This document shows positions 20,063 through 47,394 of a DNA stretch of 64,000 bases, one piece after another. The notes beneath the pieces are model-generated. The model had not been told where the DNA came from. It made no database searches and worked only from the letters and a program-made list of their open reading frames with translations. The stretch spans positions 4,447,735 to 4,511,734 of the forward strand of contig OY811988.1 of the NCBI GenBank assembly GCA_963681505.1, in the 5' to 3' direction. The position numbers and the translations under genes were made by a program. Numbering within the stretch: position 1 is the stretch's first letter; each line of letters opens with the position of its first letter. The stretch comes from Eunapius fragilis. Lineage: Eukaryota; Porifera; Demospongiae; Spongillida; Spongillidae.

Positions 20063-23000
20063 TTAGTGTGATTTAATGTTTACATCTCCACTAATGATCC
20101 TCATTAATCGCAAACGATGCAACCGACTGTCCATCCCCAGTTCAAGTCTCAAGTCATCATCACCCAACAAAGATAATATACCACCATCGATTCTTTCTTG
20201 CTTGAACACTCCCAAGTACTGCTCCAATCCGTTACGCACAAGCATGGACTGCACCTGAATCATAATGAAAACATTAAATGACATGAGTTTAATCGCCACC
20301 AAGCATTTCCAACAGATTTACGTATTGGAATTTGCACACTGCTTAATTACTTGTATGCATGCACGTCTTAAGTAGTCAGGCTCAATTGTCAATGTAGTAT
20401 TATATTATATAAATAATTCTATAATTATTATATATATATCAGTGTACCTGATCTATGCTCAAAGATGCCAAATATTGCTTGTTTTCTTTCCGTATTTCGT
20501 TAACAATGGAGGCTGCATCCGGTTTATTCGGATCTTTTGGATTCATGAACACATAGCTGTAGCCCTCGATATACTCCTCCTCCTCCTCCTCATCCTCCTC
20601 TTCTTCCTTTTCAACCTTCTCTTCCTTCTTTACAGAGGGGGACCAAATATCAGTGCCGGATTGAGGCAACGCTAGGACAGGGTGAATAGGAGCCCCTTTA
20701 GTCAATGTTGTCGCTTTTATCGGTGTGGACCCTTCGTACGGTTTTGGAGGCGGTGGTTTAGCCGTTCTTTTCGCGTCTCGGGGCATAGTGGAGGCTGCGT
20801 GGCGATGTTGTGGCTCTAATGCTACGTCTGTAGGCTTTCCAATCTTTTTCAAGGTGTTGCTGAAAGTGTCGTACAGAGGAGGGGACTCAGAGAGCTCCTG
20901 CGTTTCACTCTGTATATAGAATTAAGTGTATTAAATTCCAATGTCAATTTTTACATCTCCAATGCTGCCCTTATATTTTAAACACGTACTTATGGGAAAG
21001 GATATTGTGTACAATATAACCAAATATTAACGACTTATTGCTACTAAAAACCTGACTTAACAAAATGAGGCAAAATGTTTTATTCCTTTTCAATACAATA
21101 TCGAGAAAATAGTTCCTGTTTGTTAATCATTCTCGATGACCAATGTATATTCTATGACAGTCTCATAGTGTTACAGTATTAGTAATATTATTGTTAGGTA
21201 TTTAATTTTGAGTGCAGTTTACAACGGTACTTACGTTAACTGATAAGTGAAAGCAATGGACTGATATAATATATTACATACTTCTGTGCATATATATATA
21301 CTTACGTGCAGACTGTCTTCAATTCTTTTTAATGGCTCGGTCATCACTCTAGTGGAGCTGAGATCGACCACGCCGCTCTTTTCATCCCTGTGATCGTAGT
21401 GTTCTTTATGTAAACTGAAAGATCCTGTATTGGGGCTAGCGCTCCGTAAGTTTACGTTTTCTGACTTAAGGCACTGCGACCACTTCGTGACGTCTATCAC
21501 CGGTTGCTTTAAACATCCCGTATTGATTGGAATGTTTTCGCTTTTGATCTCTGTGATTTTTGATTTGGTGTTAGGTAGCACATTTGATTCCGTTACAACA
21601 CTGGTTGTTCTTATGAAGCTCACGTCACTTTGACCCCACTTCATATCAATCCCAGTTTTTGTTTGTGCAGAGTTTGGAAAGAGATTATCGGTGCTTGAAG
21701 CATTGCTGTGAAGCTCAGTAGTTGTTGGCATTTTTGCTTCTGGGATGGGAGTTATCTGAAATTTCGAGTAAATATATATGGAAAGTGAATGTAAGTTCAC
21801 ACAGATAGTATATGAATACAATCAGGTACATGTACTTTCTTAATAGATGCAATTTCTGAATTATTGCGTTCTCACTTACATGCTACTACTTTGTTAACCC
21901 AGAAGTAGCTATAAAGACATATATACGTCTGGTAGCAGTAGTAGTAGTTACAAAAGTATAATATTACATTATCTGTTGCACATGAACTATTATTACCTGT
22001 GGTCCGCATGTTGTCTGCTTTGCGAGATTCTTTGCAAGCTCACACGATGGCAAGGGAGTGGATATTTTGACTCCAGTCATTTCAAATCCCGGTCGAACTT
22101 GGGAGTAGAAGAACGTTTGAGCCTCTTGAATACTGGATTCTCTGATGTATGTTAATTTTTCAGATATATACCTCTGCATTATGTCAGCGGCATACGTGCA
22201 CGAACGTTTACTGCTATTTGAATCATCTATGGCGACTTTGACACCTGAACTGTTAACAGGAATGTCTATCAGAGTAGAAACATATCTGCCACTAGCGCAT
22301 AAAAGACTTCGTTCAGTTACCACTTTCAGGAGTGTGATGTCGTTGGGATCAATGTTTGAAATAGTATTACTTCCGGTCATCGCCACCTTGCATGGAAACT
22401 GATCTGCAATGTATTGCACTATGTCGGTCATGAACATGGACACGTGCTCTGGGCATGTGGAAAATGACAATTTGCAATCATCTGTTAGTAACTTGTTCGT
22501 TTTGGCCTTGATGCTAAACACCTTATACTTCTGTGATTCTCTGTCGGTTTCAGTTTGGTCAAACACGAGTATTTCGTCTTTTTCAATTACATTGGTATGA
22601 GAGGTGCAGCTGTCGCTGCTGATTGGCGCACTCGCCTTTACCTTGGCGTCAACGGCTCGCAATGCTGAGCGAGGCTCCGTTACGTACACAACTCTAGGTA
22701 GCACCTTGGCCTTCATGAGGGCACGTGCGTTTGGAAAAAGGCGCCCTTCGAGGGCTTTCTTTACGTTGGAGTCGGGGTTGTATACTACAGAGAAGGGTAC
22801 GCTGCTGTTGAGCGGTATTGAGAAGTTGTGGCAACCGCTGGTTGCGCTGACTACGGTCATCGACTTGACAGCAAGGATGTTCAATACCTCTCCTTTGGAA
22901 AGCGGTAGTTTGCTGTCACAACTCGATACTACTTGGACGGTGAGAGGGAGTGTCGTAGAATCCGATGACGCGATGTCGGAGAGAGACAGTTCAGTTCGCT

Positions 23001-23352
23001 TAGCCATGTGAACGGCTTTGTCGTCGGCCTTGCAAGTTGGCGCAGGCGTTAGGCGACTGCGGAGCTCTTTAGCTATTGAAAGTTTATCTCCAAGAGGAGG
23101 GCAAGGAGGGGGCTGTCGACTGCTGCTAACATTTACGGTTTGGAATTTTGACGCGAATGACGCCACGACGGGTTTAGCTGAGAGAGGTTTGGGTTTCTCC
23201 TTCAAGGCAGGTTTGCACACCGGCTGTACTGTTTTGCCGTCTGCTTCCATTGGAAACACGCATATCGGAGTGGTCTTCAGCTTTGAGCAACAGCTACTGG
23301 CATTAGGAGGCAATGCACCAGGCGCTTTTGGTTGAAACACAGGCGTCATCAT
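20063..23352 (-). CDS. CABIT-SAM protein, gene A (GAREM/THEMIS superfamily)
   Basis: Four coding exons on the minus strand: 23352-21997, 21755-21306, 20909-20448 and 20254-20063. All junctions have GT/AG and all are phase 0, giving 819 residues. Residues ~120-350 form one divergent CABIT domain (SIPLNSSVPFSVVYNPDSN, DEILVFDQTE, DIVQYIADQFPCKV). Residues ~453-756 are low complexity, with a KPPPPKPYEG proline run near 655 and an acidic run near 695-715. Residues 757-819 are a SAM domain (LEQYLGVFKQERIDGG, RLHRLRLMRII). CABIT proteins (THEMIS, GAREM) are signalling scaffolds acting with GRB2 downstream of tyrosine kinases; that role here is inference. A likely acceptor (TTTGCCAG) just upstream of the ATG suggests a non-coding first exon. 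Paralogues: genes B and C. Confidence 0.88.
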
Positions 23353-23639
23353 AATTTCAAGTCAGAGACTGGCAAATATAATATGCAAAAACGTTGTATG
23401 AGTGTGCCATTGCATAGAGGTGGTGACAACTAACCTTCCATTCAGATTTCAAAAGCAACGCGCAAGGTGCCTTGTTTAAAAGAGATGAGTGACAGTTCGA
23501 AAACTTTGGGGTAAGAAAGCATTGTTTATGACATGCATTTCCGCAAGGGCATGCACATGCATGTCACTTGATCTTATATATAAATAGTATACACAAACCG
23601 GTTGTCACGCCTTCCCCCAGATTACACGATTCATACTCT

Positions 23640-23693
23640 CCCCCCCCCCCCCCCCTCCCCCCCCCCCCCCCCCCCCCTCCCCCCCCCCCCCCT
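23640..23693. repeat. Poly-C tract with T interruptions
   Basis: About 54 bp of C broken by three T, located 290 bp upstream of the start codon of gene A. The remaining sequence to 25176 shows no supported gene; AT-rich with a few A and T runs near 23810 and 23870. Confidence 0.9.
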
Positions 23694-25176
23694 CCATCTT
23701 AGGCTCTCTTCGAAACTGAGTTAGCTGAGGTGAGCATTTCTGTCACCGTTCTCCTATTGTTTGCAATCTAGTGAGCGTGCGATGTCCCTCCGTGCAGAAG
23801 AAAAGAAAAAAAAAAAAAAGAAAATTTAAGAAATATACCTGAATGCATGCATACATTGTTTATTATTATTAATTTTTTTTTTTCATGCACATGCTGAAGG
23901 TTAAAATGCGCTAACATCTAAGTAATGAGGGGCTATTGCCTAATAGCCGACAGGCCATCAAAAACAACTCCTGGATTGAGCCAACTTCAAATGCTTATTT
24001 TCTCTCCGCTGATTTAACTATTCATGGGATAGATGTGTATAAATATTTTCATATACTACACAATTTTCGCAATTTATGCTGACACAACCTATCAATGCTG
24101 TCAATACACATAATCTAATTGTTGTAGTGTTAGTTTATCAACATCTTTTGTTACCATCGCTTGATTTCAAAACTCTATACTATAACCAAATAATATCCAA
24201 TTAGCTGATTTTGATGAAGGACTTCTAAAGGGTTGTAGTATCTTGAACTGAAAATGGTAGAAACGATGTTGCACTTCATTACCGCTTTGTATTGAATCGA
24301 TAATGAGTACAATCGATATCACTGTTAGATCAGTCAAGCGCGTGGATGCAGACTATAAATGTGAGAATGAAGCAGAATATACGGGTCCTTATATGGGCCT
24401 TCGATTGTAGATGCAAGATTAAAACCTGCTTCCATGTTGCAACAAGCTGCAGTATTCAAATATTCACTTATTTTGCTGGTATCACGTCACCAGCTAAGAC
24501 AACGGTATATGTGTGTATACTTCGCACACAAATTAACAAAGGAAAACGTATTGTCCAAAAACACAAAATGCATAATAGATTTCTGTAGATTTCATACGAT
24601 TCATAATGGTTTATCCTTTAGACACTATTTTGCTTTTAGATACAAAGTAGAAAGGTAATAGATTTGGGAGAAATATCAGACAACTGATCATATTTGATCC
24701 ACAGGTCATATATACACATAATAAAGTCAACAAGGTTGTACAGTGGATAAATATAAAATGAAGATAAATAGATCATAAATGCACTTGATTACTATAAGTG
24801 TCTGCAGTGTAGAAGGCCAAAGTAATACAGGTTTTGTATATGCTGTACCTGTGCAATGCCCTAATCACTGCTCCAGCAGATACGGAGTTCAAAATTCAAA
24901 GCTGCTGCATTCATTGTACAGGTGTTCAACAAAATATGCAAGTCCAAATATAAATCTAGTAGTTTGATGCTGCTTTTGAAGATGATGTATTAAATTTATT
25001 GATCTCCTGATACGGTTGCAAACAAAGCATGATGAGTAGAGATGAGATTTTTATTAGTTACTGAGATCACTTCATCAGAGGGACGCTCTAAAGCCTGCTT
25101 GCATGCATAGTGCATCCATGAATCATACCAGGCTGGGTGGAATTCAATTGATTTATTCAAAACTATTAATATGCAA

Positions 25177-25415
25177 CAACATTCTCTAAACGAGAAGGTT
25201 GGTTGAATATAGGAATCAAAGGAGATGGTGGTATAAAAAGCAAGGGAACAAGGCTTCTGATTGAAAAGGAAAAATGAAATAGACCTATATTAGCAACATG
25301 TTGTCATATTTAAATGTGTATTTTTCCTTTTCAATCAGAAGCCTTGATCGCTTGCTTTTTATACCACCATTTCCTATATATTCAACAAGCCTCATTTAGA
25401 GAATGTTTTTATTAC
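25177..25415. mobile_element. Near-palindromic MITE, copy 4 (diverged)
   Basis: Left ACATTCTCTAAACGAGAAGG and right CTCATTTAGAGAATGTTTTT match the family ends. Internal GGTGGTATAAAAAGCAAGGG and AAGGCTTCTGATTGAAAAGG pair with their inverses at 25320-25370. It is shorter and more diverged than the copies at 11-13 kb, about 12 kb away on the other side of gene A. Confidence 0.85.
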
Positions 25416-25664
25416 TTATTTCCTAAATTTTTGTGCCAATGTTGTTTTATTTTATGCACGTGTTCTTGAAACATATAGACCCAAATAGCATGCAAGAACT
25501 TGAACTTGTGTGAGAGTCACATGCATGCATGACAGAATTAAATTGCAGAGTATATTAGACCATTGTACCAATTTTCATTTGTGTTGTGTAGGCCATGCTG
25601 CCTTAGCTACTTCAAAACACATGAATATGTATAATACAATAACATTAATTTTATAGAAATGTAT

Positions 25665-26306
25665 TCAAATCAAAAATAAATTATAATTTATTGTACAATT
25701 ATATATATATTGGTGTCCTTGCCCTGGCCTGCCTCCACGCCCCCATCTACCACCACATTCCCAACTGCCACCACGTTCCCGACTGTATAAGGGGAATATC
25801 TCCCGGCAGTGCCTGGCAGTGCTGGAGGAGCAGATACTAGGTGTTGGAGTGACCCTTCCTCCTAATGGCGCTGGAGGAAGAGCAGACACTGGAGGGACCT
25901 GTCCACCACATCCCCATCTACCACCACTCCTTTTGTCTGTATAAGGGGAATATCTTCCGGCAGTGCCTGGCAGTGCTGGAGAATCCGGAGCAGACGCTAG
26001 AGGTGTTGGAGTGACCCATCCTCCTGACAGCGATGGAGGAAGAGCAGACACTGGAGCAACCCGTCCTCCTGACAATGCTGGAGGAGAAAGGGGTGGATGT
26101 GGTAGACGGACTGATAAAGCTCCTGGAGGTGAAGGTGGAGCGATGCGTGGTAGAGGATAATATGGAGCGAAGACTTGAGGTGGTGTGAAGAAATGAGGTA
26201 GAGGAGCGGTTGGGGTGGGAGAAAGTGAAAGTAATTCAGGAGCGGTTGGGGACACCACCTCCATCGCCTGTATCATCTCGTCGTCACTTGACATTCTAAA
26301 CATCAA
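25665..26306 (-). CDS. Proline-rich ORF, doubtful
   Basis: A 213-codon frame from two candidate starts; the second gives MSSDDEMIQAMEVVSPTAPE just after a possible TTTAG acceptor. The body is Pro/Ser/Gly-rich (PTAPLPHFFTPPQVFAPYYP). Two ~140-bp direct repeats (25785-25905 and 25920-26060) are read in the same frame at first (SGGRVTPT-like) and in different frames later (SPALPGTAGRYSPYT versus STARHCREIFPLYS). That loss of register argues against purifying selection on the C-terminal half. No domain recognised. It could be a low-complexity protein or non-coding repeat. Confidence 0.3.
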   Translation of the reverse strand: MMFRMSSDDEMIQAMEVVSPTAPELLSLSPTPTAPLPHFFTPPQVFAPYYPLPRIAPPSPPGALSVRLPHPPLSPPALSGGRVAPVSALPPSLSGGWVTPTPLASAPDSPALPGTAGRYSPYTDKRSGGRWGCGGQVPPVSALPPAPLGGRVTPTPSICSSSTARHCREIFPLYSRERGGSWECGGRWGRGGRPGQGHQYIYNCTINYNLFLI

Positions 26307-26529
26307 AGCATTTTATAAATATGAGATCATTATCAAATATACCACATACTTTCCATGGCTTGCGACGATCACTGTGTTGTAAGCACGATGCACATAAGGT
26401 GGGTAGGGTGAGAGATATGATGCATAGGTTTTAAAGGTGGTGCTAAGGCCAGCCTCCATGGATTCACAAAAGTGTGAAGTGTATTTGCTGTGAATGCATG
26501 GAGGCCGCGGCCTTCACATCACCTACAGT

Positions 26530-27265
26530 GCAAAAGTGCAAAGGTTTCCTGTTTAGTGGTATGAACTCAGATAGCAATAGAAGTTCATGGTATGCTAAGT
26601 GGATTCCTAAATACCATACATGGAGTCAACCTATGTGTGATCAACTAGAATTACTATTTGCCATGGGAGCAGGTCCCCTACATATGTCTGTTTGGTTTGT
26701 GGGATATATGTATTATCCACACAACGGTGGGGGTGTCATGAGCCCCAGTTCACTCATTGTAGACTGCTTTTGACATATACCAAGCATGTTTTCATAGCAC
26801 AGAAAGAAATAAACAGAGATATACATGTATATGGGGGACCTCCTCCCGTGGTAAATAGTAACTCGAGCTGCTCACACATAGGTTGACTCCATATATGGTA
26901 TTTAGGATCATACTATGAACTTCTATTGCTATCCCCTGAGTTCATACCACTAAACAGGAAACCTTTACACTTTTGTGAATGCATGGAGGCTGGCCGATGT
27001 CAGCAAATACACTTCACACATTTGTATATCTTGTGAATCATGGAGGCCTGCCTTAGCATCACCTTTACAACTTATGTATCATATCACTCACCCCACCCAC
27101 CTTTTTCTCATATATTACTATTTGCCATGGGAGCAGGTCCCCCATATATCTCTGTTTGGTTTTTGAGATATATGTATTATCCACTCAACGGTGGGGGGGT
27201 CATGAGCCCCAGCTCACTCATTGTAGACTGCTTTTGACGTATACAAAGCATGTTTTCATCATAGC
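26530..27265. repeat. Complex repeat: direct and inverted blocks
   Basis: A direct repeat of about 140 bp occurs at 26650-26790 and 27115-27260 (TTTGCCATGGGAGCAGGTCC, CATGAGCCCCAG, CATTGTAGACTGCTTTTGAC). An inverted repeat of about 110 bp pairs 26530-26640 with 26870-26975 (ATAGGTTGACTCCATATATG, CACTAAACAGGAAACCTTT). GCATGGAGGC words recur near 26500, 26985 and 27040. This is probably a rearranged non-autonomous element; no TSD identified. Confidence 0.7.
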
Positions 27266-27689
27266 GCAGAAACACATTTACATGCACACAATGTTGTATA
27301 ACTTCAGCTGGGCCAATGTATTATATTGATTGTGCAGGAGACAATCCCACAGTACTGGTGCTATGCACAATGATTAATTTCTATAGTCACTTGCAATAAA
27401 AAAATCCTTTGTCTTAGTATTTCACAAATACAGCACACATAATGCACACAGAACATGGGCTGTGTGTTAACAGCCTTGGTCTGCTTGTTGTAGCTTGACC
27501 AGTCTATACTCTGACAAATGTAGACAACGGTTTTTATTTGAGCGTTGTGACCATCAACATTTTAAATTAATGCACATACCTTCCACACCCACCCACCAGT
27601 AATAGGGACTGTCCACATTGCACTGACCAAATACACATGGTGCCTCAGCATGTCATTGGGGAATCTAACCATGCATAATTTATTCCAAA

Positions 27690-29690
27690 TGAGAGGTAAC
27701 AACCTCAAAATGATTTCCATTTCTCCAGTATATATACATGGATTTTCTTTCAACAATGTATTTTGGGGTCAATTGCACCGGGGTTTGCCATGAAGCTCCA
27801 GCTAAAAGCAAGGTCTGCATCAAAAGAGTAAATATTGCACAACAGCAGGTGTGACAATGTGACCATTTCATTACTTGTACCATAGCTACCCAACACATCC
27901 ATTTTAGTGTCAGATATATATGCCTCTATATCCTCCCCCACTTCAGTGTGCATTGAACCAATCAGAAGGTGTGATATTTGGCGCATATGTCTAATTATGC
28001 GCATTCTCACATCATAATAGTGATCAGGTGAACCAGTGATTATATGTGAAAAACACCTGAAGAGACAATTTCCATCACCTATTTCTTTCAGTATATTGTG
28101 TGTGCATTATAGGGCGATTTAAATACACACCAGGGCCACCAATTTCTAAGTTGTTTGAATTGTGAAACTGAAGCCCCAATTGTGCACACTTCTCCTGTTG
28201 CCATACTTCATCTGTTTGGTAATATCTTAAACATGGCCATGTGGTTTGCATTTCTGCCCGAGGTAACCTTCCATCACCCTTAGCCTTAGTAAGATCTACA
28301 GTAGATGAGCTGGGTGTGCATGGCTTTGCTGGGTGCTTTGTAAACTTCTTTTCATTTACTGACTTCTTAGGTAGTACATTTTGTTGGGGATTTATGCTGT
28401 CACATGTTAAACCAGTAAGCTTAGGTTTACTATTGGGTTCTTTAGGAACCCCTGACAGCTCTATGCATGGAATGTCACTTCTAAAATGTTTTCTTAACCT
28501 GTTAACTTCTTCAGTACACTCCCTGCTGACCTTGATAGATTTACGATCAAATGATAAAAGATACAGACCAGCTAATAGTGTTCTCACATGTGACATGGCA
28601 ACATAGGCCATTCCTGTTGCAAATGCATCCCAACAATTGCACAGTCTAATGATAAACATTGGCATTTATGGATTGTAATAGCAAATGCCAGTATGAAAGG
28701 AAATAGTTTTCTATACACATAGAAACGATGCAGTATTTGAAACTTACTACGTACAAGTTCAATTTTAAACAGTGATTTTGGAGTGTGATCAAATGTAACC
28801 TGAATGCGGTCCTTGCTGATTGCAGAAATAGTACCCAGTCCCCCGTTAACCAACCTTTGGGCTATGTCCAGATTGCATCTTAACATGACCCATACACCTA
28901 CAGCCACTTTTAAATCTGCCTCTAAACCAGCAGTCATATTACAGTCTTCACTTAACTTTTCTAGTTTCAGATGATGCCCTTTTTGTCCACTTCACTTTCC
29001 CTGCTGTTTCATCAAACTCATCTATGCAGGGCATGTGTACAATATGTGATCCCACTTTGGAAAGCATGTCTGCGTTAAATTGGTCACAAGACTTTCTTGT
29101 GGCTAACAGACACACAGGTGACAGGTGTTGATCTAGAAGTTCCTGGAATTTTCAATAGGTGTGCATTTTATAACAGCTTTGTTTAGCAGAGCGATAGTTG
29201 CATCTGATATACAATTCACCCTGACCTCATTTAAAAGCTGACCAAATTCTGGATCTCGTTTTTGCCTTTCACTAATGGTGAGCTCATCATACACTTCAGA
29301 TTCCCTCCAAATGTTTACTGCTGTCACACAGCCTAGCCTTGCTGCAATGACTTTATTAGTAATATATTTGGAAAACCATTCAACCATTTACAGGAGGTAG
29401 CTGCAACAAATCCCCAAAAAAGAGGATATTCATAAACCCAAACCATTGATCACCTCTTCAAGCCTCAGATGGTCACCAAGCAATAAGTCACTGGCGTCGT
29501 AGAGGCCACACTCTCTAGAACGCAAGGACCATACGCCAAAGGACCAGAGCTTGCTGTAAATACTGCTGTTAGAATTGACCTCTTGCCACACATCCTGCAT
29601 ATTACTTTTCTCTGCTTTGGTAATGTAACCTGTTACATAATGAGCTAGGGTCAATGAAGCCGCGATCATTTCCTGTTGTTTATAAGACAT
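27690..29690 (-). pseudogene. Decayed Helitron-type protein: Rep tail, Pif1 helicase, OTU protease
   Basis: In minus-strand order: a Rep/helicase-linker segment (HYVTGYITKAEKSNMQDVWQ, then LRSRECGLYDASDLLLGDHL); helicase blocks VYDELTISERQKRDPEFGQL, SPVCLLATRKSCDQFNADML and LVNGGLGTISAI; motif V-like TIHKCQCLSLD and motif VI-like YVAMSHVRTLLAGLYLLSFD; then an OTU domain with IGDGNCLFRCFSHIITGSPD (catalytic Asp/Cys) and NHFEVV (catalytic His). Several frameshifts separate the blocks (for example between 28075 and 28010 and near 27760), and the HKCQG glycine and the YVALSRVR arginine are replaced. The Rep nuclease motifs and N-terminus are missing, so it is 5'-truncated and inactive. The Rep-Pif1-OTU combination is known from animal Helitrons/Helentrons. 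Confidence 0.88.
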
Positions 29691-30741
29691 CGGGCATGCT
29701 AATGCTTAGTTATCACCAGCTGCGTACAAACGTCACATCATTTCGTGATATGCCTGCATGGTCGCGATCCGACGTGGCATGGCTGATTAGACATGTCCAG
29801 CATATTCAGCGCATTGCGTTACGCATTGTTGGGCACACACCAGCCAGCCTGTCGTCTCCGCCTACGCCCCGGGAACCATTCATTGAAAGTCGTTTTGCCG
29901 GTGTGTACTATCGGGCCCCACGTTGAGTGTCTCAGATGAAATAGGTAGGTATATATCTGTGTATGATTAGACGGGGCATGCATTAAGTAGAAACAGTGCT
30001 GGGAGCGCAATGGTAATTGCCTAACCCTGGTCCTAACACGAACTGTGCATGGAATGGTTGATATGGAAGATGGCTCGCGGGCAGCAATATACATAGGGGA
30101 ATTTTCAGCACGATGGGCCACAGGCATGTATATGGACTCGCTCGTAGGATATCTCTTAAATTCAAGAGTGATATGCGACGTTATGGGCACTAAATCCACT
30201 CCGAGGTTCTTTAAAACCTTTAGCTATATCTACCTAAAATTTCGGTTCTCACGTGCCCTAGCCAGATACGACGTTTTTGGTTTAGATTTTTTTTTTTTTT
30301 TTCTTGGCCAGGGAGGGGAGCATTATTTGAAAGATTTGTATGCTAATCCATATTCGATATTCAACTCGGTCAATGCCTTGGCTATAACATGTGAAGTAAG
30401 TTATTTATAGTATCAGTCATGCACGGATTCCCTGATATTTTAACCACGCAGCTATACCACGCATGCAGACGCAGATTGGTTACCAGATTGGTTATCAGTC
30501 AGCTTCTTGTTTCGCATTGCTATTCCGTTTGTCTAAAGGCCATGTTATGGCGCATACGGAAGTATGTTTGAAGGGCATGCATTGATTCACGCAATTAAAT
30601 TCGTGTAAACATACGTGCATCTCGGTTCATTTATGGTGACAGACAATCGTGTCCTATATCAATGCGACTATTATTTTCGTTCTGAGTGATTTTGCTTGCA
30701 TTCACGATATGCTCCATCATCATTCACAGAAGTATTACTCG
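29691..30741. other. No gene seen
   Basis: Sequence beyond the truncated Helitron-type protein. A T18 tract lies at 30285-30302. No frame has recognisable content. Confidence 0.3.
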
Positions 30742-34772: not shown

Positions 34773-34774
34773 GA

Positions 34775-36462: not shown

Positions 36463-36815
36463 TTAAGTAAAACAGGTGGTAAAAAAGCTGACACAGCCTG
36501 TGAATAAATCACTCCACAAGCGTTCTATTCTATGCATGGTTGTGACACTTCTCTGTAAAAGTGTACTGTTTCGGCCAGCCCCATGTTGTTCAACCATGTA
36601 CTGTGCATGACACCTGAATTTTCTCTCCTCTCGCACTCTTGATGTTTGACCTGCATAGTATTTTGAATAGCTGACAATACCGTTGCAGTACGGTTATTTG
36701 TTGCTGCTTTTAGGTACCGTTGATGCCTCCATGGATATCTATCTTCCATCAATATGCCACAATGCATTTGGTGAGTGTACCGATAGACCCTTTGGTTCAA
36801 TATATAGGATCGATT
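36463..36815 (-). pseudogene. Integrase-core (DDE) gene fragment, frameshifted
   Basis: The first frame reads NQRVYRYTHQMHCGILMED and RYLKAATNNRTATVLSAIQN. A frameshift near 36650 leads into SRVREERKFRCHAQYMVEQH, then GAGRNSTLLQRSVTTMHRIE and RLWSDLFTGCVSFF. This order (RVYxV..N.LWH, NNRxxTVL, SRVRxDxGGEN, YMxE..G, GRSVHNQRIERLWxDxF) is that of an integrase-core family common in cnidarian, fish and sponge genomes. Here the Asp of SRVRSD and the GGEN glycines are lost (REERKF), so it is inactive. Confidence 0.72.
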
Positions 36816-36836
36816 CTCAACATTAGCAAAACCGTT

Positions 36837-37070
36837 TCAATTTTTCTTGGACTCTTTCCAGGCAAAGGGCTCCTGCCAGCTATCCTGCTCGGGTAGAACC
36901 TTTACCCCCAGGGCCATGAGCTCTTCTCCTTGGTTTTTCAGGCCAAGGAGCTGAGCATCAGAATCTCTTCCATAAACCTTCCTCTGAAGGTTATGCTTCT
37001 TAAAATTAGTCCAGACTTCTAACCTAAAACGTAATGCTGAAGCTAACCTAGCAGCAAACTTGTGGTCTCG
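36837..37070 (-). pseudogene. 77-codon open segment, no start codon, family unknown
   Basis: Between a TGA at 37071-37073 and a TGA at 36837-36839 the minus strand encodes AARLASALRFRLEVWTNFKK, HNLQRKVYGRDSDAQLLGLK, NQGEELMALGVKVLPEQDSW and QEPFAWKESKKN. The composition is convincingly protein-like, with charged amphipathic stretches. It sits 22 bp upstream (minus sense) of the integrase fragment. No Met in a start position and no clear splice acceptor are seen. I do not recognise it; it may be part of the same element or a captured exon. Confidence 0.4.
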
Positions 37071-37841
37071 TCACTCTCTCCTATATGAATGTTCATAGTT
37101 TTGGGTTTAGACTGTGAGCTTATTGCTCCACCATTGTTCTAAAGGGGTTCAATCACTCCATTATTTTCTTTATTCCTGCTCGCATTTGTCTATAATGCAT
37201 GCTCTCTCATGTATTATGAGTGTAGAGGTTTTGCCCCTATGGCAATATTTGACCGATATGCGTGTCCCTTTTTAAATGCTTCCATAGCCAAGGTCCTCAT
37301 ATAAAGTAGACCATTTAGTCATTTTTCATCTCTAATCAAGCCTTTATACAGTATAGGCATTATTATTCAATACAGGTTAAGTAATATGACTAACTTGTTT
37401 CATGGTCTTCTCAGATGGGATGTATGATTATAAATCATACGGCCCTTCCTTAATGGCTTTTCTTTTTTCGGCTATATCATGCTGTCTTACATAGGGTTAT
37501 CCGTCATTCTTTTCCCTTTATTAGGGTTCAGTTTGTGGCTTAATAAACCATTACAGGTTGTGGATTTGTTCCTTTCACTCCGTATGGAAAGCAACTTAGG
37601 CACGTTACTTTTTTAAATCAATGCATAACCACGCAACGAAAGGCCTTGACATAGAAGAAACTTCATTGCACACAGCCGCCTCAGAAACCCCATTCGTTTT
37701 TGAGTCTGAACTTAAGCAAATTCAGCACACTCAATTTTTGCACTAAAGTTTAGAGAGCAGGTCTGAGCATGGTTGACCCAGGATACAGTAGGACGATGAA
37801 AATCTTAGTTACGTTTCTCGTAGAAACTGCAGGTTTTTAAC

Positions 37842-38150
37842 TTGTTTGGGTGCAGCGTGCATACAATAGAGCGACGATTGAGGGATCCCTCCATCAGTTT
37901 AAAGGCCTACAGCAGAATTGGTGATGAGAAGCTTGATTTTGGTAGTTTCACAGATAACCAGCTCAATCCAAGCTGTGGAAAGAAATCTGTCACTGGTAGG
38001 GATAGTATTGTTGCTAGAGAGATTATATGAATCGACTGATTCTATTGGAGTTGCCACACATTTCCCAGCAGTTTTGCACCAGGGTCTATTCGTACACTCA
38101 CCAAATGTATTGGGGCATATTGGTGGATACCTTAATTGTCACTCATGAGG
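37842..38150 (+). pseudogene. Integrase-core family N-terminal fragment, opposite strand
   Basis: FGCSVHTIERRLRDPSISLK and AYSRIGDEKLD match the helix-turn-helix and linker that precede the integrase core (GxSxxTxxRRL..YS.I.D.ELD). After frameshifts comes STDSIGVATHFPAVLHQGLF and VHSPNVLGHIGGYL, equivalent to the R-x-Y-S-V-x-SPN-LWHIDG start of the core. Its tail (38080-38135) is the inverted counterpart of 36745-36800, so two pieces of the same family face each other 1 kb apart. Confidence 0.65.
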
Positions 38151-38264
38151 TACACATATCACCCCTGAACCATACATGTCACTCATGAGGTAAACATTTC
38201 ACCCATGAGGTAAACATGTCACCCATAAGGTACAAAACTGTCCGTATCCACCATTTTGGCATAC

Positions 38265-38369
38265 CAGCTTTCTTCATCCACTGTCGATAGTTCTGGGTGT
38301 CTTCATCATCCCTCTGCTTCTCCTTGCTCTTCCTCATGTTGCCCTGCTCCTCCTCACGCTCACTCACAC
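38265..38369 (-). pseudogene. Exon-like fragment: Cav channel I-II linker
   Basis: Minus-strand segment between a possible TTCCAAG acceptor and an AAAGCTG|GTATGC donor. It encodes VSEREEEQGNMRKSKEKQRD and DEDTQNYRQWMKKA. This matches the start of the cytoplasmic loop after IS6 in voltage-gated calcium channel alpha-1 subunits (GEFAKEREK...RRQQQIERELxGYxxWIxKAE), including the start of the beta-subunit interaction region. Together with 38751-38986 it suggests a calcium channel gene or a copy of part of one. The intervening S6 exon is not found. Confidence 0.5.
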
Positions 38370-38469
38370 CTTGGAACACACCATTGGCACAACAAGAGGG
38401 CATGATGCATTAATGCACCTTCTTACACAGCAGTTTGCCAGCCTGAACAATGGACCCTTGTATGTGGAC

Positions 38470-38735
38470 TGGATATGTGCAACTTACAGGATCATACATG
38501 TGTACACAACACATATACACATACAAACGCATACACATGTACACACACATACACATGTACACACACATACACCTGCAACCCACATTCATGCACCGACACG
38601 TATGTACACTTTAAATACGGTCTACACCAAAGCTTCCACTTGCCACACCTCACATCCTCTCCACACCCACCTACCCCACAGCCTCCTATCTCACCCCACA
38701 CTTGCACACTCCCATCCCATCCCATCCCACACCCT
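38470..38735. repeat. CA-rich simple sequence
   Basis: Imperfect ACACATACAC repeats followed by CCCATCCCATCC stretches. They separate the two calcium-channel fragments. Confidence 0.75.
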
Positions 38736-38750
38736 TCCATCATCACTCAC

Positions 38751-38986
38751 AAAGAAAAACACAGCTGTCCACCCCTCAATGGTCATGACCACAAAGACGG
38801 TGATGAGGGCAGAGAAGATGTTGTCAAAGGAGACAGTGCCGTAGGAAGACCCGTCATCCTACTGACGACATGTGCTCTCTCCCTGGCAGAGGTAGGCACC
38901 TGAGGGGGCCTGGGAACTCGAGGAGGTCTGGGAACCCGAGGGATTCCAGCAGGCATACGTGCTATTGGGGTAACTCTGCAGGCTGT
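38751..38986 (-). pseudogene. Exon-like fragment: Cav channel repeat I pore loop with TAG
   Basis: Minus-strand segment bounded by CTCCATAG at the right and TTCTTT|GTGAGT at the left. It encodes DSLQSYPNSTYACWNPSGSQ (turret), CQGESTCRQ, then an in-frame TAG, then DDGSSYGTVSFDNIFSALIT and VFVVMTIEGWTAVFFF. FDNxxxAxxTxFxxxTxEGWT is the repeat-I selectivity filter of voltage-gated calcium channels, with Glu at the filter position. The TAG and the missing S6 exon suggest a pseudogene or partial duplication. A sequencing error or a separate small intron at the TAG cannot be excluded. Confidence 0.6.
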
Positions 38987-39789
38987 CTATGGAGGTGAGG
39001 TCAGAGGTCAGAGATCCCATAGACGTTGATTTTAAAAATGCACATCTACATGTACGCAATGTAAATCATATACATGTATCCCAGGACTCCACACATGAAC
39101 CTTAGGACTTCAGACATGGTACCCCAGGACTCTGCACATGAACCCTAGGACTTCAGACATGTACCCCAGGACTCCACACAAAATTGGTTCTTATAACCAA
39201 TTGTCTGGGTGGAAGGGGGGTTCCCCAGGACTTACAAGAGTACTTCTCGTGTCCGGCCGGGCCATCCACACTTGAAACATTTCCAAGGAGATTAAACATT
39301 TTAAAAATTATCTATATGTTATTTCGGTAAGAGTTAATAGCTAGGCTGAAATCCCTCTGGTCTTCATCCCAGGCCCCCGTTGGAAAACAGAGTTTTCCTA
39401 AACACTCTAGATATTAAGGTTTCACCCACCCCCATCCGTACGTGTTCCCCTCGGTTCCTCATTGTGAGGGGTTTACCTCCAGTTGGAGTTGTTAAGAGAT
39501 GCTTCGTAGGAGTTGTGGGGGTGTGTGTTTCGTGTAACAGAAGATAGGGGCAAAGTTAATTGTGTCGCGACGTCCGAATTAGCCGCTTCGCGCCTACGGT
39601 TGTTGACCTGACAGGCTGACAATATAGCAAGATTATACCGTATTCCTTAGTATTCCCTCCGTAAAGCGGATATTATATATATTTATTAATTATTTATTTA
39701 TATTTTTACACGAAATTTTTATTTAACCGTAATAATTTTTGGCGGCATCCGCGTTGCATACATTACAATATGTGAAAATCCATTTTGTG
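38987..39789. other. No further exon seen
   Basis: Contains a short tandem CCCAGGACT(C/T)..ACATG repeat (39075-39180). I find no upstream calcium-channel exons. Confidence 0.3.
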
Positions 39790-40060
39790 TCTTACTCATG
39801 TGGAGTATACCGATGTTACAAGGTCAGATACCCCTTAGGGTACAAAACGGCCACATCTTAAGGTACGAGCGTCCAAATCGGTTCAAATTCGGTGCTTACG
39901 TGGTCCTGTCGCTATTGATTTGTTTAGTTCGTTTATTTTTACTTTATCCGTTACGTAGATATATAGCTGTGCAAAGTGCGTGCACGGTTTCCCGCTCGAT
40001 TCGCGCCAGTGAATTCGACATTCAAATCAATTTTGCATATAGATGTTGTGTTAGAACCCG
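39790..40060 (+). repeat. Dispersed repeat upstream of gene B
   Basis: ATACCGATGTTAC, AGATACCCCTTAGGGTA, CAAATCGGTTCAAATTCGG, GGTCCTGTCGCTATTGATTT, TATCCGTTACGTAGATATAT and CGATTCGCGCCA recur in the same order at 47660-47710 plus 48700-48880, and inverted at 48938-49095. It lies about 370 bp before the gene B start. Whether it contributes to the promoter is unknown; the repeat nature points to a transposon. Confidence 0.75.
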
Positions 40061-40424
40061 ATAGCATTAATATTTCGGAAGATATTTTTATGTTATAAAC
40101 ATAAATTCACAAGACCCATTTTCCCATAGAACTTCCATACATAGTTTTAAAAAATTGTAGATATTAAAGCCATAATTATCTGCAACAGTAATATGCTTTT
40201 ATCTTGATTTTGGTGTGACACTGCTTGATTTTTGCATTGTGAGTTGTGAAGTTTATTTTGGACAAGTTCATTTAGAAATAATAACATAAGATGTTATAAC
40301 AGATGCTATTCACGCAACGCGTATTATGTTCCTTTGTACAACTGTGAGATGGGCTGTGAAATGCGCATCACGTAATGAGTGTAGTGTATATATATATATA
40401 TAACATCATTATTCCATATATATC

Positions 40425-43400
40425 ATGCAGTTGTACAAAGGAATGGAAACAAGGAAGAAGCCCCGCGACAAGCTCAACCTTAGTGAACTCACTACACTAA
40501 ATTCCAATGCCATCAAGCAGCTCAGCAAATCGCAGACCTCACTGTACAGGGTTTCACCGCTACTCACCCACGAGGAGGCTGTGCTCCACCGCGGTCATTC
40601 GCACAGTGACATAAACAAGTTGAACACGGGTGTGCGGGGACCACGCGCATCGTCTGCGACAGAAAGGGTCCTTCGCAGTGAGATCAGAAAATCTTCTACT
40701 CCCTCCTCCGAGTTGCTTACAAAATTATTGTCAGGGCAACGTTCCTTTCCTCGAGCTCTCGGTGATGAGGGAAACCTAACCGCTTCCATGCCTTCTTTAT
40801 TTCTCAAAGACGCGGAGAAGTCTCCAACTCAATCGCCAAAGCGACGCGGACACCGATACTCGAAACAGCGTAAGTCACTCAAGACACAGTCCGTGCATAC
40901 ACTGATAGACTGCAGGGAAACCTCTCTAGCCGATTTTGTGTCTAGGTACAGCGATTCTCTGCCTGTTCAGGTTGAAATACAAAATGGATACTACTCTCAG
41001 AGCAACCCCATATGCTTATCACGTGGCGACACGTGCAATGTGTACTTCTTGCATCATATCGACGCGGTAACCGGAACCATACAGGGCATTAGTATCTCTG
41101 TACCCCTACACACAGACCTCCAGGTCTGTCTCGTTCACAATCCAGATTGCAACGCAGAGCGCGCCCTAATGGGCTATGAGTACGAGACCATTCAAGACAT
41201 CATAGCTAGCAGTCCCCGTCCGAAGTTGATTCGTTCGCTTTCACTCAGCAAACATGGTCACGTGACTATCGACCGTGACGAGTTATTGGTTATAGTTGGC
41301 ACCATACTTCTCCCAAGAGATGATACGGTATGGTTGGAAGCCTTCAGCCTCAATTCACACAAAACGTTGCACCTACATCCGAAATGCAGTGGAAAATTTA
41401 CAACACGCCCCCAATTACTGCCTCTCGCTTTGTCCGATGTCGCCGAATATGTTCCAGAACCTTTTCCGTGTACCGTTCTAACATACGCCTACCAAACTGC
41501 AGATACCTCAGAAGCCAAAGTAATTGATCTTCATAGCCGAAGTGTTGAATCGCTTATTGTCTGCTCGTCAACCACGTCCAGCGAGCCGCTTTTCGTCTTG
41601 CCCGCCAACTGTGCGGTTACAGTGACTCTTCTCCCGATGAAGAGCAGCGATGAGGGCCTATCACTTCGCGAACAAACTAGGAATGTCTTGGAGAACTTTA
41701 ACCCAGCGCGCTGCGACTACCTCGTGGACATAGCAAGTAGTAGCCTGTACGAGTTTCAAATATGGCTGTACAGAACAATGAAACGTGAGACGGCAGCGGA
41801 TAGTATGCTCGCACCCTCTTTATTCGATGCACTATCTCCTCGCCACAGCAACACTTTTTTCAAAACGCCAGGGTACAACTCCGCCAAAGGCGACCTGTGT
41901 GCTCATGCGTCTCAAGTCCGGAAAATTAGTTGCGAGCCTCAAATGAGGCCAGAATGCATCGTCTACTTGGCGCAGAATTCTTTGGAAACAGTATCTTCAC
42001 CCTCGTCCCTATCGGACGGCTCGGCAAAATCATCGAGCGAGCCTACCCCGCCCACACCACCCCGCCCATTGCGACTGTGCATGTCCGCGCAGGACGACAT
42101 GCTTGTTTTGCCGTTCGGGTCTGAAGAATCTCTCTACCTGTCCCCGCTGTGTTCGCAGGTACCAAAAGTTTTGAATCTCTTCTCATTCGCGAAGCGTTAC
42201 AGCAATCACTTCCCCGTCGTGGCGGACGTGAAGGATGGGTATGTGTTCCAGGATGGGATACAGATTTCTAGGGGGGACGTGCTTACTGTGCATGGCATTG
42301 CATACACCGAAGGTGTATCAGTCAAAGACGACCAGGGCAAAGTATACATCTTACCCATGGACGCCACGTCAGAGTTTGGAGTTTTACAGGATGACTCGTT
42401 CCGACAGCTCTTTGGTGACGAAGCCGAGTTCGACACAATCGGAGAAATAATCTCCAATGAAAATGTTCCGAAGATTTTGTGCGCGCGCAGCCAGTACAAT
42501 ACCGGTAATCAGCGGAGCTCCGTTGAAGCTAACGAGGTTCTGGTTGTGAGGAAAGTGAAGAAGCTATCCAAGATCCTCAAAGTGTATAGTGTCACGCACG
42601 AAATGAAAAAGAACCTGGCCGCAAAGTGTGCAGGTCATTTTACCACGGCTCCTAGAGCAGTGAAGCTCGTCATATCCAAGCTGCTGCAATTCTTCCCGAC
42701 GTTTCTGCCGGGAAAGGCTGTGGCCTTTCCCGACACGTACTGCAGCGAACTCCCAGCACAACTGGAATTCAGTATCGTAACCCTGTCCTCCATTCACCCA
42801 GCCAACTCACTAGTTTTCAGCTGCTCGCCTCAAGACGTGGTGAGCGGGGAGCTCCAACTGTTCAGCGTGTCCCTTGATCACTACCTCCACCTTCAGCCAC
42901 ATGAGGGTAAACCAAACGTGTCGGCTACGCTACCCGCCATCAACTACTCGCGATCAATGAGCGTACCACAGATAAATGTATCTTGCACTTTTCCACGGTT
43001 AGAAAGGAGTAGCTTACGTGAGAGTCCTGAATGGAAAGTGGACAATGTGAAATTCCTTTCTACGCTGAATGAAAACAACGTAAGTGATGTTTCCCTTTTT
43101 AATTAGTGCATATGCATATACTATTATTGAGAACATAAAGAATAGAAATGAAGTTTGTTACACGTTAAAGTTACGGATATAAACAGTATGATACGTTTTC
43201 ATATTTTCCAGGACAAGGATATAACGAAAAGTAACCGGCTCGCATTGAAATGATAAATTCGGTGCATGCCTTGTTATTGTAGAACTGCGGCGTACAGTTC
43301 AATTCTTGATGCATGGATAACAATTATTTGATGGAAAAAAAGTGCTTACAGTTTTCAGCATGTGAAAAAAAATGAAAACAAGCTAAGGGTGATAATCTCC

Positions 43401-44394
43401 CAATTAGAAGACGTGTAAGGGAGACCGGGCCGGTTGTCAAAGAGGTTGGTTGTCACAAATTTTATATCTTTGCCACGATGAATGATAGCAATTAATAATG
43501 TACATGTACATGAGAAATATAGATAATGATTGCGTCAAGCAGAATCACCAAGTGTAGCTACAATCCTAACTGTTGTGTTTCTTACCATGTCGAGTAATTC
43601 TGTGTTCTTCAGTATTAACTATTACATGCAATCAAATAATGGCAAAAACTTGAGTTGTGCACATACAAATAATGAGTAGTATATTAAAAACTATACTAGA
43701 GCGTAGTTGTAAAGCTAGTGTTTTGTAGTATGCATTTGGTACAGCCACACATACATCGAAGAATTATTTGTCTATAAAATACGCTATTTCAATACATGCA
43801 TGAATGTAGGTTCAAGTTCAATTATGGTCAAATCAGCTTCAAGCATAGGATAGTTCAGTAAGGGAATTTTCTCTTAAATAAAACTAAGCTGTTAATGCAT
43901 CCCCTTGAAACCTTGAAATTAGTGAGTGTTTAACACTGCACCTGCATGTTGTGTGCGGACTCTTACTTACATCCTGTTATACACTGCTATCACTGAGGAG
44001 CCATTTCACACTGCACACTATGTATGCCTACATACTCAAGCCTCAAGCCTCAATGCAACAAAAATTTCATCCTTTCATGCATGGTAGAATTTGATTTCAT
44101 TGCAAAATGAATATTTTCATGTTGTGCCCATACTATCCTTGTGTTAACTTGATTGGGCATTTTATCACTTTGCTTTTTTCCTCCATGCAGATTTTGCAAT
44201 TGTTAGAGGCAATGCATTTAAAAAAATACAAAAAGGCATTTAAAGACGAGAAGATAAATGGGCATATATTCTGCATGTTTGATGAGAAAATATTGGAAGA
44301 AGACCTAGGAGTCGAAAGCAGACTGCATCGCATCAGGCTCATGCAGATTGTCAACGGAGAAGCCGATGCTAGGGCGTACCTGTCGAAGAAATAA
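40425..44394 (+). CDS. Two-CABIT plus SAM protein, gene B
   Basis: Coding exons 40425-43079 and 44191-44394 join in phase 0 (AACAAC|GTAAGT...TCCATGCAG|ATT), giving 952 residues. The first Met precedes a CAG that could be a splice acceptor; the alternative start METRKKPRDKLNLSEL is at 40443. CABIT 1 spans ~165-400 (SLADFVSRYSDSLPVQVEIQ, KCSGKFTTRPQLLPLALSD). A SH3-type PPTPPR motif lies near 540-548. CABIT 2 spans ~578-790 (FSFAKRYSNHFPVVADVKDG, PMDATSEFG, CAGHFTTAPRAVKL, FPDTYCSELP). SAM spans 886-952 (LLEAMHLKKYKKAFKDEKIN). Vertebrate THEMIS has two CABITs without SAM; GAREM has one CABIT with SAM. Gene B combines both plans. A receptor-proximal scaffold role is inferred from the family. Confidence 0.92.
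43212..43253 (+). other. Candidate alternative terminal exon of gene B
   Basis: Within the 1.1-kb intron a TATTTTCCAG acceptor is followed by GACAAGGATATAACGAAAAG..., encoding DKDITKSNRLALK and TGA. It joins exon 1 in the correct phase and would give an ~898-residue isoform lacking the SAM domain. Purely sequence-based; may be fortuitous. Confidence 0.35.
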
Positions 44395-44539
44395 TGCTAT
44401 CGGTGACCTGCTGTGTGTGAATCCTTATAATTGAACATCATTTTTATGGCTGCACTAGAGGACATTTTATATAGATACCAGATGCATCGATTCTTCTATC
44501 AGGTGTAGCCTGGGTGAGCCTCGTAGCCAGCCACAAATT

Positions 44540-44594
44540 AACGATGACCATCGCTAGCAGTTTGATGTTATAACTGCAATCGATGGTCATCGTT
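44540..44594. repeat. Inverted repeat, 14-bp arms
   Basis: AACGATGACCATCG and CGATGGTCATCGTT pair perfectly around a 27-nt loop, 150 bp after the gene B stop codon. It could be a structured 3' UTR element or a small foldback element. Confidence 0.7.
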
Positions 44595-45199
44595 ACGTGC
44601 ATTAGGGTCTAGGCTGTAGGTCGCTATGATTTTCATTGAAGCGATAGATTTAGAACGCACAGCAGTGTGCATGCAGCCGTTGCATGCGCATTTACGGCAA
44701 GTCCGCTGTAATAGCATGCATGTATACATCATCTACACCTGTGTATCGCTTCCATCGTACCATAAATGATATCCCATGAGATTGGCCTTATCTGCTATTC
44801 CATTTTTCCTTGCATATGCAATTTTGAGAGTTGACATTTAGTTATTTTTCTAATAAGAAGATTGCTCATGTTCACAACATTTTATTGTTGGACTTTCCGT
44901 ATAGTCCTGCAATTACTGACCGTTAGAGCTGATACTTCTTAATAACTGATTATTCTCATTGCTGCCATACAGATGCATTACTCCCATGACTGCATGCGTG
45001 CATGCATGGCTGGAAATGTAGTGCTGCATGAAGAGAGCATGCAATCCAAACGTTCAAGTGCACACTGACCTTACACCCAATAGCCATGCACAACATATTT
45101 TCAACCATGCAAATGTGAATAGAAATGTTATCAATCTTGCAACTGATCATGCATGAAATAAGGACAGGACAACATAAATTCGTGGTTCTCATGTGAGGC

Positions 45200-47394
45200 T
45201 CATTGACCTACAAAATGCATTCTAACGTTTGTCTTCCCTGTAATCACCTCCATTAATCTAATGCGATGTAAGTACTTCTTTACTCCTAGCTCCGTTTCAA
45301 GCGTTTTCTCATCAAGACGACACATCATGTACCCGTTGACCTTTTCCTTCTTGAATGTTCTCTTGTATGCTGATAAGTCAAGTTTTTCAAGAAGCTTTTG
45401 TACCTTAAGAGAATGAGATTTGATGTAATCTCCATTGAGCATGCATGCTTAAAGATGTGAGTAAATATGCAAGTATCATTTTAAAAATCCGGCTATGTTA
45501 AGACTGCACGTTATGATATACATGCACATGCACATGCACAGTTGAGATTACATATAAATCATGGAAATCAACTCCACCCCTCATGTTATCCATGAAAGAA
45601 AGCAATTCACTATAACTCAGGATTTTGAAATTAATTAACTACTTGATTTCTTTACCATATGTTGCAGTAGTTAGCCAAATACTAACAATCCAATTGGATT
45701 ATTGTAAAACATCGGTTAAGTAATTGTATCAAAATTATGAAAGTTATTCAAGATTACGGTTAGAGATAATTGATTTTAATAACTACTAGTAAGTGCATAC
45801 TAACCCAGTGTATCTCATAGATATACCTAGAAGGTTGAGAGCTAGCTGGGTCTGGTCATCACAGAAGACTCCAGCACCCCACATGCAGCCTACACAGATT
45901 TTATTCCACCTCCCCATCCTCCTGGGTCACTATGTACGATGCAATGGCGTCATAATGCTCCCTGGTGTGTTCTCCACATCCTGCCATATCCTTCTCCCCT
46001 CCACTATTTTACGCTGTGCATATATGGGGGTACATGCATGCATTATGCAAACTATAAAGTGTACATGCAATGAGGTAGCTCGTTGCAAGGCCAATCGTCT
46101 ATGCCTGTTATATAATATTCGAATGGTTTGCCTTTCTTTATTTTTTCATCATTACCATGCTGCATGCGTTAAGTTAGACATACATTTAGAGCAAGGGTGT
46201 AGTTTTCTCACGTACCATTGTATCATCAAGTGAGGATAAGAATTCGATGTTGGCTTTTCTATCAGCAATACCGATGCTGTCCGGAATGTCAATATTAGCG
46301 TACTCGTTGTCTGCTTGGTTCAATCCAGTAGTCCTTGCTGGTGATGGAGGCGGACTAGTCCCGCTTAAAGATTTCTCCCTCTTTGATAAACTGCCCCGCG
46401 GGTAATCGTAACCCGGGGAAGTGGCAGCATCAGCCGCAGTCGTCACCGGGGGAGTACCCGCTCCCGCGTAAGGCGCTTGACCCACCTGGGACGGCGCTTG
46501 CGGGAAGGAGAGTAACGTGCTTGTGCTAAATTGCTTGGGCTCGGACGATACGAGTAATTTCTTGCGCATTTCGTCCCCTGTGTACTCGTACACAGGCTTA
46601 ATAAACTTATGATCGTAAAAGGGCATTACGTAGATATCCAAAGGAGTGCTCACTGGTAGGCTAAACACAATCTTCTCCTGCTGTCTGTTGTAGCTGGCGA
46701 TGATGCTGCCCTTCTCGTGAATTTGGAGCAGGGTCACCTCGCAGAGCTCCAGTTCCGAAGGTAGCTCGCTGCAGTAGGCGTCAGGGAACGCGACCACTTT
46801 GACGGGCATTATTGTGGGGAAATAATGGAGAAGTTTGAACAGCGGGAGCTTCACGCTCGTTGACGCCGTAGTGAATCGGGCCGCGCACTTAGAGGGGACG
46901 CGCTTCTCCTTCAGCGTTGTGAGGCTGTACACGTCCAGATGATTCGGCGACGCGTTGACTACAATCAACACTTCCCCGGCCTCGATGGCCGACTTAGGGT
47001 CGTCGCCCCAATTCTTCAGAGCGCAGACGATCTTTGGCGTGGGAAGAGACGCCGCGACGTCCCCTGCTGTTCTGAATTCAACCGCCTGTCCGGCATAGGC
47101 TCTGTCGTGCACTAGGCCAAACTCAGAGGTAGCGTCTAGCGGTATTGCGTAGACCATACCTTTGGTGTCTTGCATCGATACCATGTCCGACTTGGCGGCG
47201 GCGTGTATGGTGAAGATGCTTCCTTCTGAGAGGTCGACCTGCTTGCTGCGCATCGTTCCCTTGCGTATCTGAACGGCGCGCGGGAGATAGTGGGAGGAGT
47301 ACTTGTCCACGAATGCTGCTAAGTTGAGACACACCCCTCCACCGAGTTGCTGGTCGGATCCGGAGACAGTCCGCGATAGCCTCTTTTCCTCCAT
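45200..47394 (-). CDS. CABIT-SAM protein, gene C
   Basis: Two coding exons, 47394-46216 and 45403-45200, joined in phase 0 (ACAATG|GTACGT...CTCTTAAG|GTA), give 460 residues. The single CABIT (~20-265; LAAFVDKYSSHYLPRAVQIR, PLDATSEFG, KCAARFTTASTSVKLPLFKL, FPDAYCSELP) is closest to CABIT 2 of gene B. A linker carries PPSPAR (PxxPxR, SH3-type) near 347 and EYANI (pYxN, GRB2-SH2-type) near 365. The SAM domain is 394-460 (LLEKLDLSAYKRTFKKEKVN, YLHRIRLMEVI). GAREM proteins bind GRB2 through both motif types; the same is inferred here. A CCTGCAG acceptor 12 bp upstream of the ATG implies a non-coding first exon. It converges with gene B, the stops being 806 bp apart. Confidence 0.92.

Follow-up and report, generated by a model that had tools for sequence, protein, structure and literature searches.

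In a stretch of the genome of the freshwater sponge Eunapius fragilis (24 contigs, 218,937,333 bases) we found three genes, named A, B and C here, that encode CABIT domains together with a C-terminal SAM domain and lie within positions 20063-47394 of the window, i.e. the whole analysed stretch of 64,000 nucleotides (contig C18, positions 4447735-4511734). We consider them likely to be members of a CABIT-SAM adaptor family of about 55 gene groups that has grown through repeated local duplication, through CABIT domains being gained and lost, and through some relocation between chromosomes. A and C are located on the minus strand and B on the plus strand; B and C are convergent, as a first-pass annotation of this DNA had described, with a gap of 805 bp between them, and the limits it gave for the trio are the stop codon of A and the start codon of C. 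The predicted proteins comprise 819 amino acids in four exons (A), 952 in two (B) and 460 in two (C). All modelled introns are of the GT-AG type and in phase 0 (splicing was predicted from sequence), and an additional upstream exon is possible for each gene. Gene B has two CABIT domains, both spanned by a 900-residue open frame, whereas A and C have one each. The coordinates are collected in Table 1.

The presence of CABIT and C-terminal SAM domains in all three genes, claimed initially from the letters alone, was borne out by profile searches. For the whole frame of gene B, the Pfam CABIT model (PF12736) gave an E-value of 1.8e-10 and 41.1 bits (cut-off 24). Scanned as lone domains, the CABIT of A passed the cut-off (E 1.2e-6) and the first CABIT of B fell slightly short of it (bit scores in Table 1); the main exon frames of A and C had no Pfam match at E 1. 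As an independent test, we constructed a paralogue profile from CABIT domains outside the window, seven in number and taken from five loci, each with a Pfam CABIT match above the cut-off; five of the domains are the Pfam match itself, and two, chosen by eye, are second domains of the same loci. Among the 822 frames of the window, this profile matched three frames with four domains, i.e. those of A, B (two) and C (147 to 192 bits, Table 1), and 20 shuffles of the window frames yielded a single match of 12.7 bits, ruling out that the CABIT call arose by chance. The assignment for C thus follows from its match to the paralogue profile and its 40% identity to the second CABIT of B.

One cysteine (C154 in the numbering of the second CABIT of B) is shared by all four window domains and reaches at least 90% conservation across 31 family domains (31 of 37 were aligned, six close copies being omitted); we assume it to be the one that defines CABIT. 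A structure predicted for the second CABIT of B from a four-sequence alignment contains 17 strands and 4 helices (predicted local distance difference test, 80.9; predicted template modelling score, 0.70; two of the five models were poor); this mostly stranded model agrees with the all-beta definition of CABIT. The C-terminal exons of A, B and C pass both curated Pfam SAM cut-offs (PF00536 and PF07647). The exon preceding the SAM exon ends in a pattern common to A (NKQYLASLSIDQ), B (NVKFLSTLNENN) and C (NIEFLSSLDDTM). In all 13 family SAM exons examined (13 of 15 SAM matches, the two weakest being omitted), a phase-0 acceptor AG is located 15-24 bases 5' of the start of the SAM profile, and it occupies the identical column in all 11 exons with a known profile start. 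This shared intron position in front of SAM argues for a CABIT-SAM fusion that was inherited and not re-invented.

The family was delineated by genome searches with gene B (53 matches; of 75 candidates, 51 were scored) and with individual CABIT domains of contigs C7, C5 and C18 (72, 76 and 71 matches, respectively, all candidates scored), whose overlapping matches were merged by hand. This gave 73 disjoint CABIT places, 33 on C18, 22 on C7, 17 on C5 and one on C2. Three of them carry stop codons and another one (C18 3809757) is a partial domain; the presence of broken and intact copies side by side suggests that genes of the family are born and lost. By a rule of thumb (same strand, less than 2.5 kb apart), the places form 55 gene-like groups on four contigs, some of which hold two genes, since a SAM match lies between two CABITs at 5.322-5.325 Mb of C18. 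The expansion anticipated by the first-pass annotation hence exists, and it is larger than the trio in the window. A neighbour within 50 kb was found for 48 of the 55 groups, whereas 500 random placements gave 1.3 such groups on average and never more than 8; for C18 alone it was 25 of 28 groups, against an average of 9.8 and at most 19 over 1000 random placements. A contrast search for SH2 domains yielded 70 matches spread over 17 contigs, which rules out a search artefact confining matches to few contigs. With the SAM domain of C, 36 places were detected at E 0.001 (26 on C18, 6 on C5 and 4 on C7).

The number of CABITs per group ranges from one to four, with 41 of the 55 groups showing one. 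Two are present in gene B, in a gene at 3.91 Mb of C18 with a SAM domain 3' of it, in frames of 900-935 residues on C7, at 2.93 Mb of C18 (no SAM in the fetched stretch) and probably also at 5.97 Mb. A single open frame of 1461 residues at C7:6348900-6353700 contains four. The array on C5 is of recent origin: 11 additional copies that extend over 227 or more of the 241 query residues are 88-97% identical to the query. For six C5 copies (15 pairs), the mean ratio of nonsynonymous to synonymous substitution rates (dN/dS) was 0.32 in the CABIT domain versus 0.74 in both flanks, the value for the C-terminal tail including read-through past the last donor site. The CABIT of this recent array is under purifying selection, and its flanks are under looser constraint.

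As to the relations among A, B and C, two trees were calculated, the first with 54 of 57 profile rows, after removal of those that were short or weak, and the second with 42 of these 54 (close copies and partial domains dropped by hand). The CABIT of C is the sister of the second CABIT of B in both (98 in tree 1; 98/88 in tree 2, where the bootstrap had not fully settled), in agreement with the match seen at first inspection. This pair is nested in a set of four rows with the second CABITs of the C18 genes at 3.91 and 2.93 Mb (100; 98/99). The CABIT of A and the first CABIT of B are on long branches and have no supported partner in either tree. The expectation that A, B and C form one clade was not supported by constrained tree tests. 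Grouping A with the second CABIT of B and C cost 47.8 log units and was rejected (approximately unbiased test, p 0.0025), which makes it unlikely that A derives from a second CABIT; uniting all four window domains cost 69.0 log units and was rejected as well (p 1.4e-5), as expected if the two CABITs of B are old paralogues. A pairing of A with the first CABIT of B is absent from the tree and was not rejected (3.6 log units, p 0.33), and from its sequence A may descend from a first CABIT like that of B. Likewise, a clade of the first CABITs of B and of the 3.911 Mb and 2.933 Mb genes is absent from the free tree 2 and was not rejected (p 0.37). When the genome was searched with the CABIT of A, the C5 copies came out on top, followed by C18 copies outside the window; the first CABIT of B ranked 13th of 75 rows, and the second CABIT of B and that of C were absent.

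We regard it as unlikely that the trio is a stand-alone local cluster in which one gene was copied in place, C keeping a second CABIT like that of B and A keeping the first. Such a cluster would account for the location of all three genes within 27 kb and for the sister relationship of C and the second CABIT of B, and the pairing of A with the first CABIT of B was not rejected. However, this pairing is unsupported in both trees, the association of A with the second CABIT of B and C was rejected, the nearest matches of A are found on C5 and elsewhere on C18, and closeness is the rule in this family, given the 25 of 28 C18 groups with a neighbour within 50 kb. B and C probably share a history in their second CABIT, as far as the sequences tell, with A being a more distant family member that lies nearby. 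C would most likely be an inverted local copy of a B-like gene that has lost the first CABIT. A would probably represent an older, separate branch whose proximity to B and C reflects the general crowding of the family on C18.

Of the local duplication with inversion assumed by the first-pass annotation, the part concerning B and C fits their sister domains and convergent orientation. We found no inverted repeats of at least 20 bases pairing the two genes, and with a domain identity of 40% such an event would be old. The SAM exons show no clear pairing of B and C, the SAM of B being 55% identical to two others versus 51% to that of C. A somewhat less improbable alternative than the stand-alone cluster, although we doubt it too, is that C originated from another two-CABIT gene (e.g. 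that at 3.91 or 2.93 Mb of C18) and was placed beside B later. The four closely related second CABITs are distributed over three C18 sites, the SAM of C is no nearer to that of B than to others, and the lack of an inverted DNA repeat between B and C points in the same direction; on the other hand, the second CABIT of B and C are a supported pair inside the four-row set (98/88), which speaks against this alternative.

Besides the unclear pairing of the SAM exons, several findings weigh against our interpretation of A, B and C as members of a large adaptor family. First, the second CABIT of B and the CABIT of C show no Pfam CABIT match up to E 10 when each is scanned by itself. No solved CABIT was found by sequence for comparison: gene B gave a single weak match in the PDB (cytochrome P450, E 0.0072), judged to be a chance match, and the best PDB match of the 31-domain profile was an RNA polymerase II subunit (E 0.72). 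A beta domain that arose by convergence or was wrongly called CABIT nevertheless seems extremely improbable, as CABIT is the one Pfam family matched at E 0.01 by 18 of the 31 family domains, the domain of A lies above the Pfam cut-off, the paralogue profile joins all four window domains at 147 bits or more, and the conserved cysteine and the all-beta model agree with the CABIT definition.

Second, there are 36 SAM matches versus 55 groups at E 0.001, leaving SAM unseen for about a third of the groups, and no CABIT match lies within 14 kb of the SAM match at C18 5293133. Third, equal-scoring pairs on C5 and C18 are possibly assembly duplicates, and the family count is therefore approximate. On C5, the places 3978825/4105581 and 3983569/4110325 have equal scores at a fixed distance of 126,756 bases, and further equal-scoring pairs occur at C5 4088998/4118396 (29,398 bases apart) and C18 3569624/3606883 (37,259 bases apart), which suggests either recent segmental duplication or assembly duplication. 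The completeness of the published assembly by BUSCO is stated as 60% (PMC12616128). We think it highly unlikely, though, that much of the expansion is owed to haplotypes retained in duplicate by the assembly: the domains for the most part differ strongly from one another (the 42-row tree, which omits near-copies, has a median end branch of 0.96 changes per column), the six compared C5 copies differ in indels and tails, and the same source gives a BUSCO duplication of only 1.2%.

Fourth, the enrichment of adaptor-type motifs outside the CABIT domains is modest. In 46 frames (7741 residues, with the C5 array represented by one copy), PxxPx[RK] was found 21 times versus 9.4 expected and Yxx[ILVM] 72 times versus 44.5 (both reached in 0 of 300 shuffles), and YxN 15 times versus 8.8 (reached in 9 of 300); since whole-segment shuffles ignore local proline clusters and the frames include some intron read-through, these values support the adaptor reading without proving it. 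For [RK]xxPxxP the excess is small (the count is reached in 31 of 300 shuffles), and YxxP (289 of 300) and PPxY (135 of 300) show none outside CABIT. Gene A is devoid of YxN, and the sole YxN of B sits within its second CABIT. The tail of gene C combines a PxxPxR motif with an EYANI site.

Judging from domain layout and motifs, A, B and C are most likely cytoplasmic adaptors of phosphotyrosine signalling; the label "tyrosine-kinase scaffold" given to them earlier is an inference. In such an adaptor, the CABIT domain or domains would hold a protein-tyrosine phosphatase or another partner, in analogy to THEMIS and GAREM, SH3 domains of GRB2-like adaptors would dock on the proline-rich part and SH2 domains on the tail tyrosines once these are phosphorylated, and the C-terminal SAM would cluster the complex. 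The accessible part of PMC10987373 reports binding of the THEMIS CABIT to the catalytic domain of SHP-1, whose catalytic cysteine is thereby stabilised in oxidised form; according to the same source, other studies take THEMIS as a damper, and papers disagree whether it strengthens or weakens signalling. THEMIS is linked to SHP1 via GRB2 (PMC4339124, accessible part), and the THEMIS2 complex requires a proline-rich motif and a tyrosine (PMC2903609, accessible part).

Table 1. Features of genes A, B and C (positions in the window)
Feature	Positions	Strand	Basis and remarks
Gene A, exon 1: start codon, N-terminal part, CABIT	21997..23352	-	model; donor GT after ...CGPQ, phase 0
Gene A, CABIT domain	22216..22992	-	paralogue profile 147 bits; Pfam CABIT 28.6 bits as lone domain (cut-off 24)
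Gene A, exon 2, no detected domain	21306..21755	-	model; frame without Pfam match at E 1
Gene A, exon 3, proline- and acid-rich, ends ...NKQYLASLSIDQ	20448..20909	-	model
Gene A, exon 4: SAM (about 20081-20239), stop codon 20063	20063..20254	-	Pfam SAM_1 36.0 bits (cut-off 23)
Gene B, exon 1: start codon, two CABITs, proline-rich linker, one open frame	40425..43079	+	model
Gene B, CABIT 1	40917..41642	+	paralogue profile 151 bits; Pfam CABIT 23.7 bits alone (cut-off 24)
Gene B, PxxPxR-type proline motifs (PPTPPRPLR) between the CABITs	42048..42074	+	model
Gene B, CABIT 2	42168..42911	+	paralogue profile 192 bits; best Pfam stretch of the whole B frame; no CABIT match as lone domain
Gene B, exon 2: SAM (about 44206-44364)	44191..44394	+	Pfam SAM_2 32.4 bits, SAM_1 31.2 bits
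Gene C, exon 1: start codon 47394, CABIT, proline-rich tail, EYANI motif	46216..47394	-	model
Gene C, CABIT domain, sister to B CABIT 2 (40% identity)	46615..47331	-	paralogue profile 164 bits; trees; no direct Pfam match
Gene C, exon 2: SAM (about 45230-45388), stop codon 45200	45200..45403	-	Pfam SAM_1 39.6 bits

Apart from the three genes, the window contains a frame with an OTU-like match (24.3 bits, cut-off 23.3) that adjoins a frame with a Pif1 2B-domain match (19.4 bits, below the cut-off of 23.9) at 27750-28991 on the minus strand; by its sequence, this looks like a Helitron remnant. At 51833-57887 on the minus strand, matches to the first (45.7 bits) and third (23.9 bits, slightly under the cut-off) longin domains of FUZ/MON1/HPS1 perhaps represent one ordinary trafficking gene upstream of C. 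A tandem repeat of 33 bp, partly self-complementary, is located just upstream of gene C (47736-47849), and a perfect (GAA) array of about 100 copies occupies 1487-1788. Two minisatellites, with 34 units of 28 bp (57959-58921) and 35 units of 43 bp (62458-64000, extending past the end of the window), may explain the strong GC skew at 56-64 kb. Elsewhere in the genome, two broken COX1-like stretches on C9 (9625139-9675257) are probably mitochondrial inserts, judged by sequence; the COX1 on contig C24 has nine in-frame TGA codons, as expected for a mitochondrion.

According to the accessible part of PMC4082722, THEMIS consists of two CABITs and a proline-rich region, GAREM of one CABIT, a proline-rich region and a SAM domain, and the CABIT family has been traced down to cnidarians, with five members in mammals. 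Compared by layout alone, gene B shows the arrangement of THEMIS with a SAM domain added, and thus unites the THEMIS with the GAREM layout. The conserved CABIT cysteine is a further likeness to THEMIS1/2/3. The differences are the C-terminal SAM of B, which that part of PMC4082722 does not list for THEMIS, the position of the PxxPxR motifs of B between the CABITs, and the single CABIT of A and C; the four-CABIT layout found in one C7 frame is likewise unlisted there for either THEMIS or GAREM. A and C, unlike B with its two CABITs, resemble GAREM1/GAREM2 in layout (one CABIT, a proline-rich part and a C-terminal SAM), as does the gene at 5.18 Mb of C18, which has a SAM and the best Pfam CABIT score (72.1 bits). 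In contrast to GAREM, however, C has a CABIT of the kind that tandem genes carry in second place, and its one-CABIT layout therefore looks secondary. By sequence, the closest solved structures to the SAM of C are the SAM domains of SARM1 (E 1.1e-6); the likeness is limited to SAM, as the other domains of SARM1 were not found here.

Genes of this kind are already known; to our knowledge, what is new is that they occur in a sponge, how large the family is there, and that it includes tandem-CABIT-SAM and four-CABIT layouts. In the open-licence literature, which was partly covered, we found no report on CABIT, THEMIS or GAREM genes of sponges. With the sponge occurrence, the family reaches further back, and it is about ten times larger here than in mammals, where CABIT proteins tune T-cell and other receptor signalling. 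Tentatively, and with more doubt than confidence, we propose that THEMIS and GAREM are trimmed descendants of a tandem CABIT-proline-SAM adaptor that predates the split of the sponges, and that freshwater sponges made it into about fifty diverging members with one to four CABITs. If there was such a tandem ancestor, constrained CABIT cores combined with freer tails could wire one signalling step to many receptors or phosphatases. From the sequences of dozens of natural sponge variants, tandem-CABIT-SAM proteins included, one could read how the ancestral protein was laid out and which surface of the domain is conserved, and these variants pose the question of which role fifty such adaptors have in an animal without T cells.

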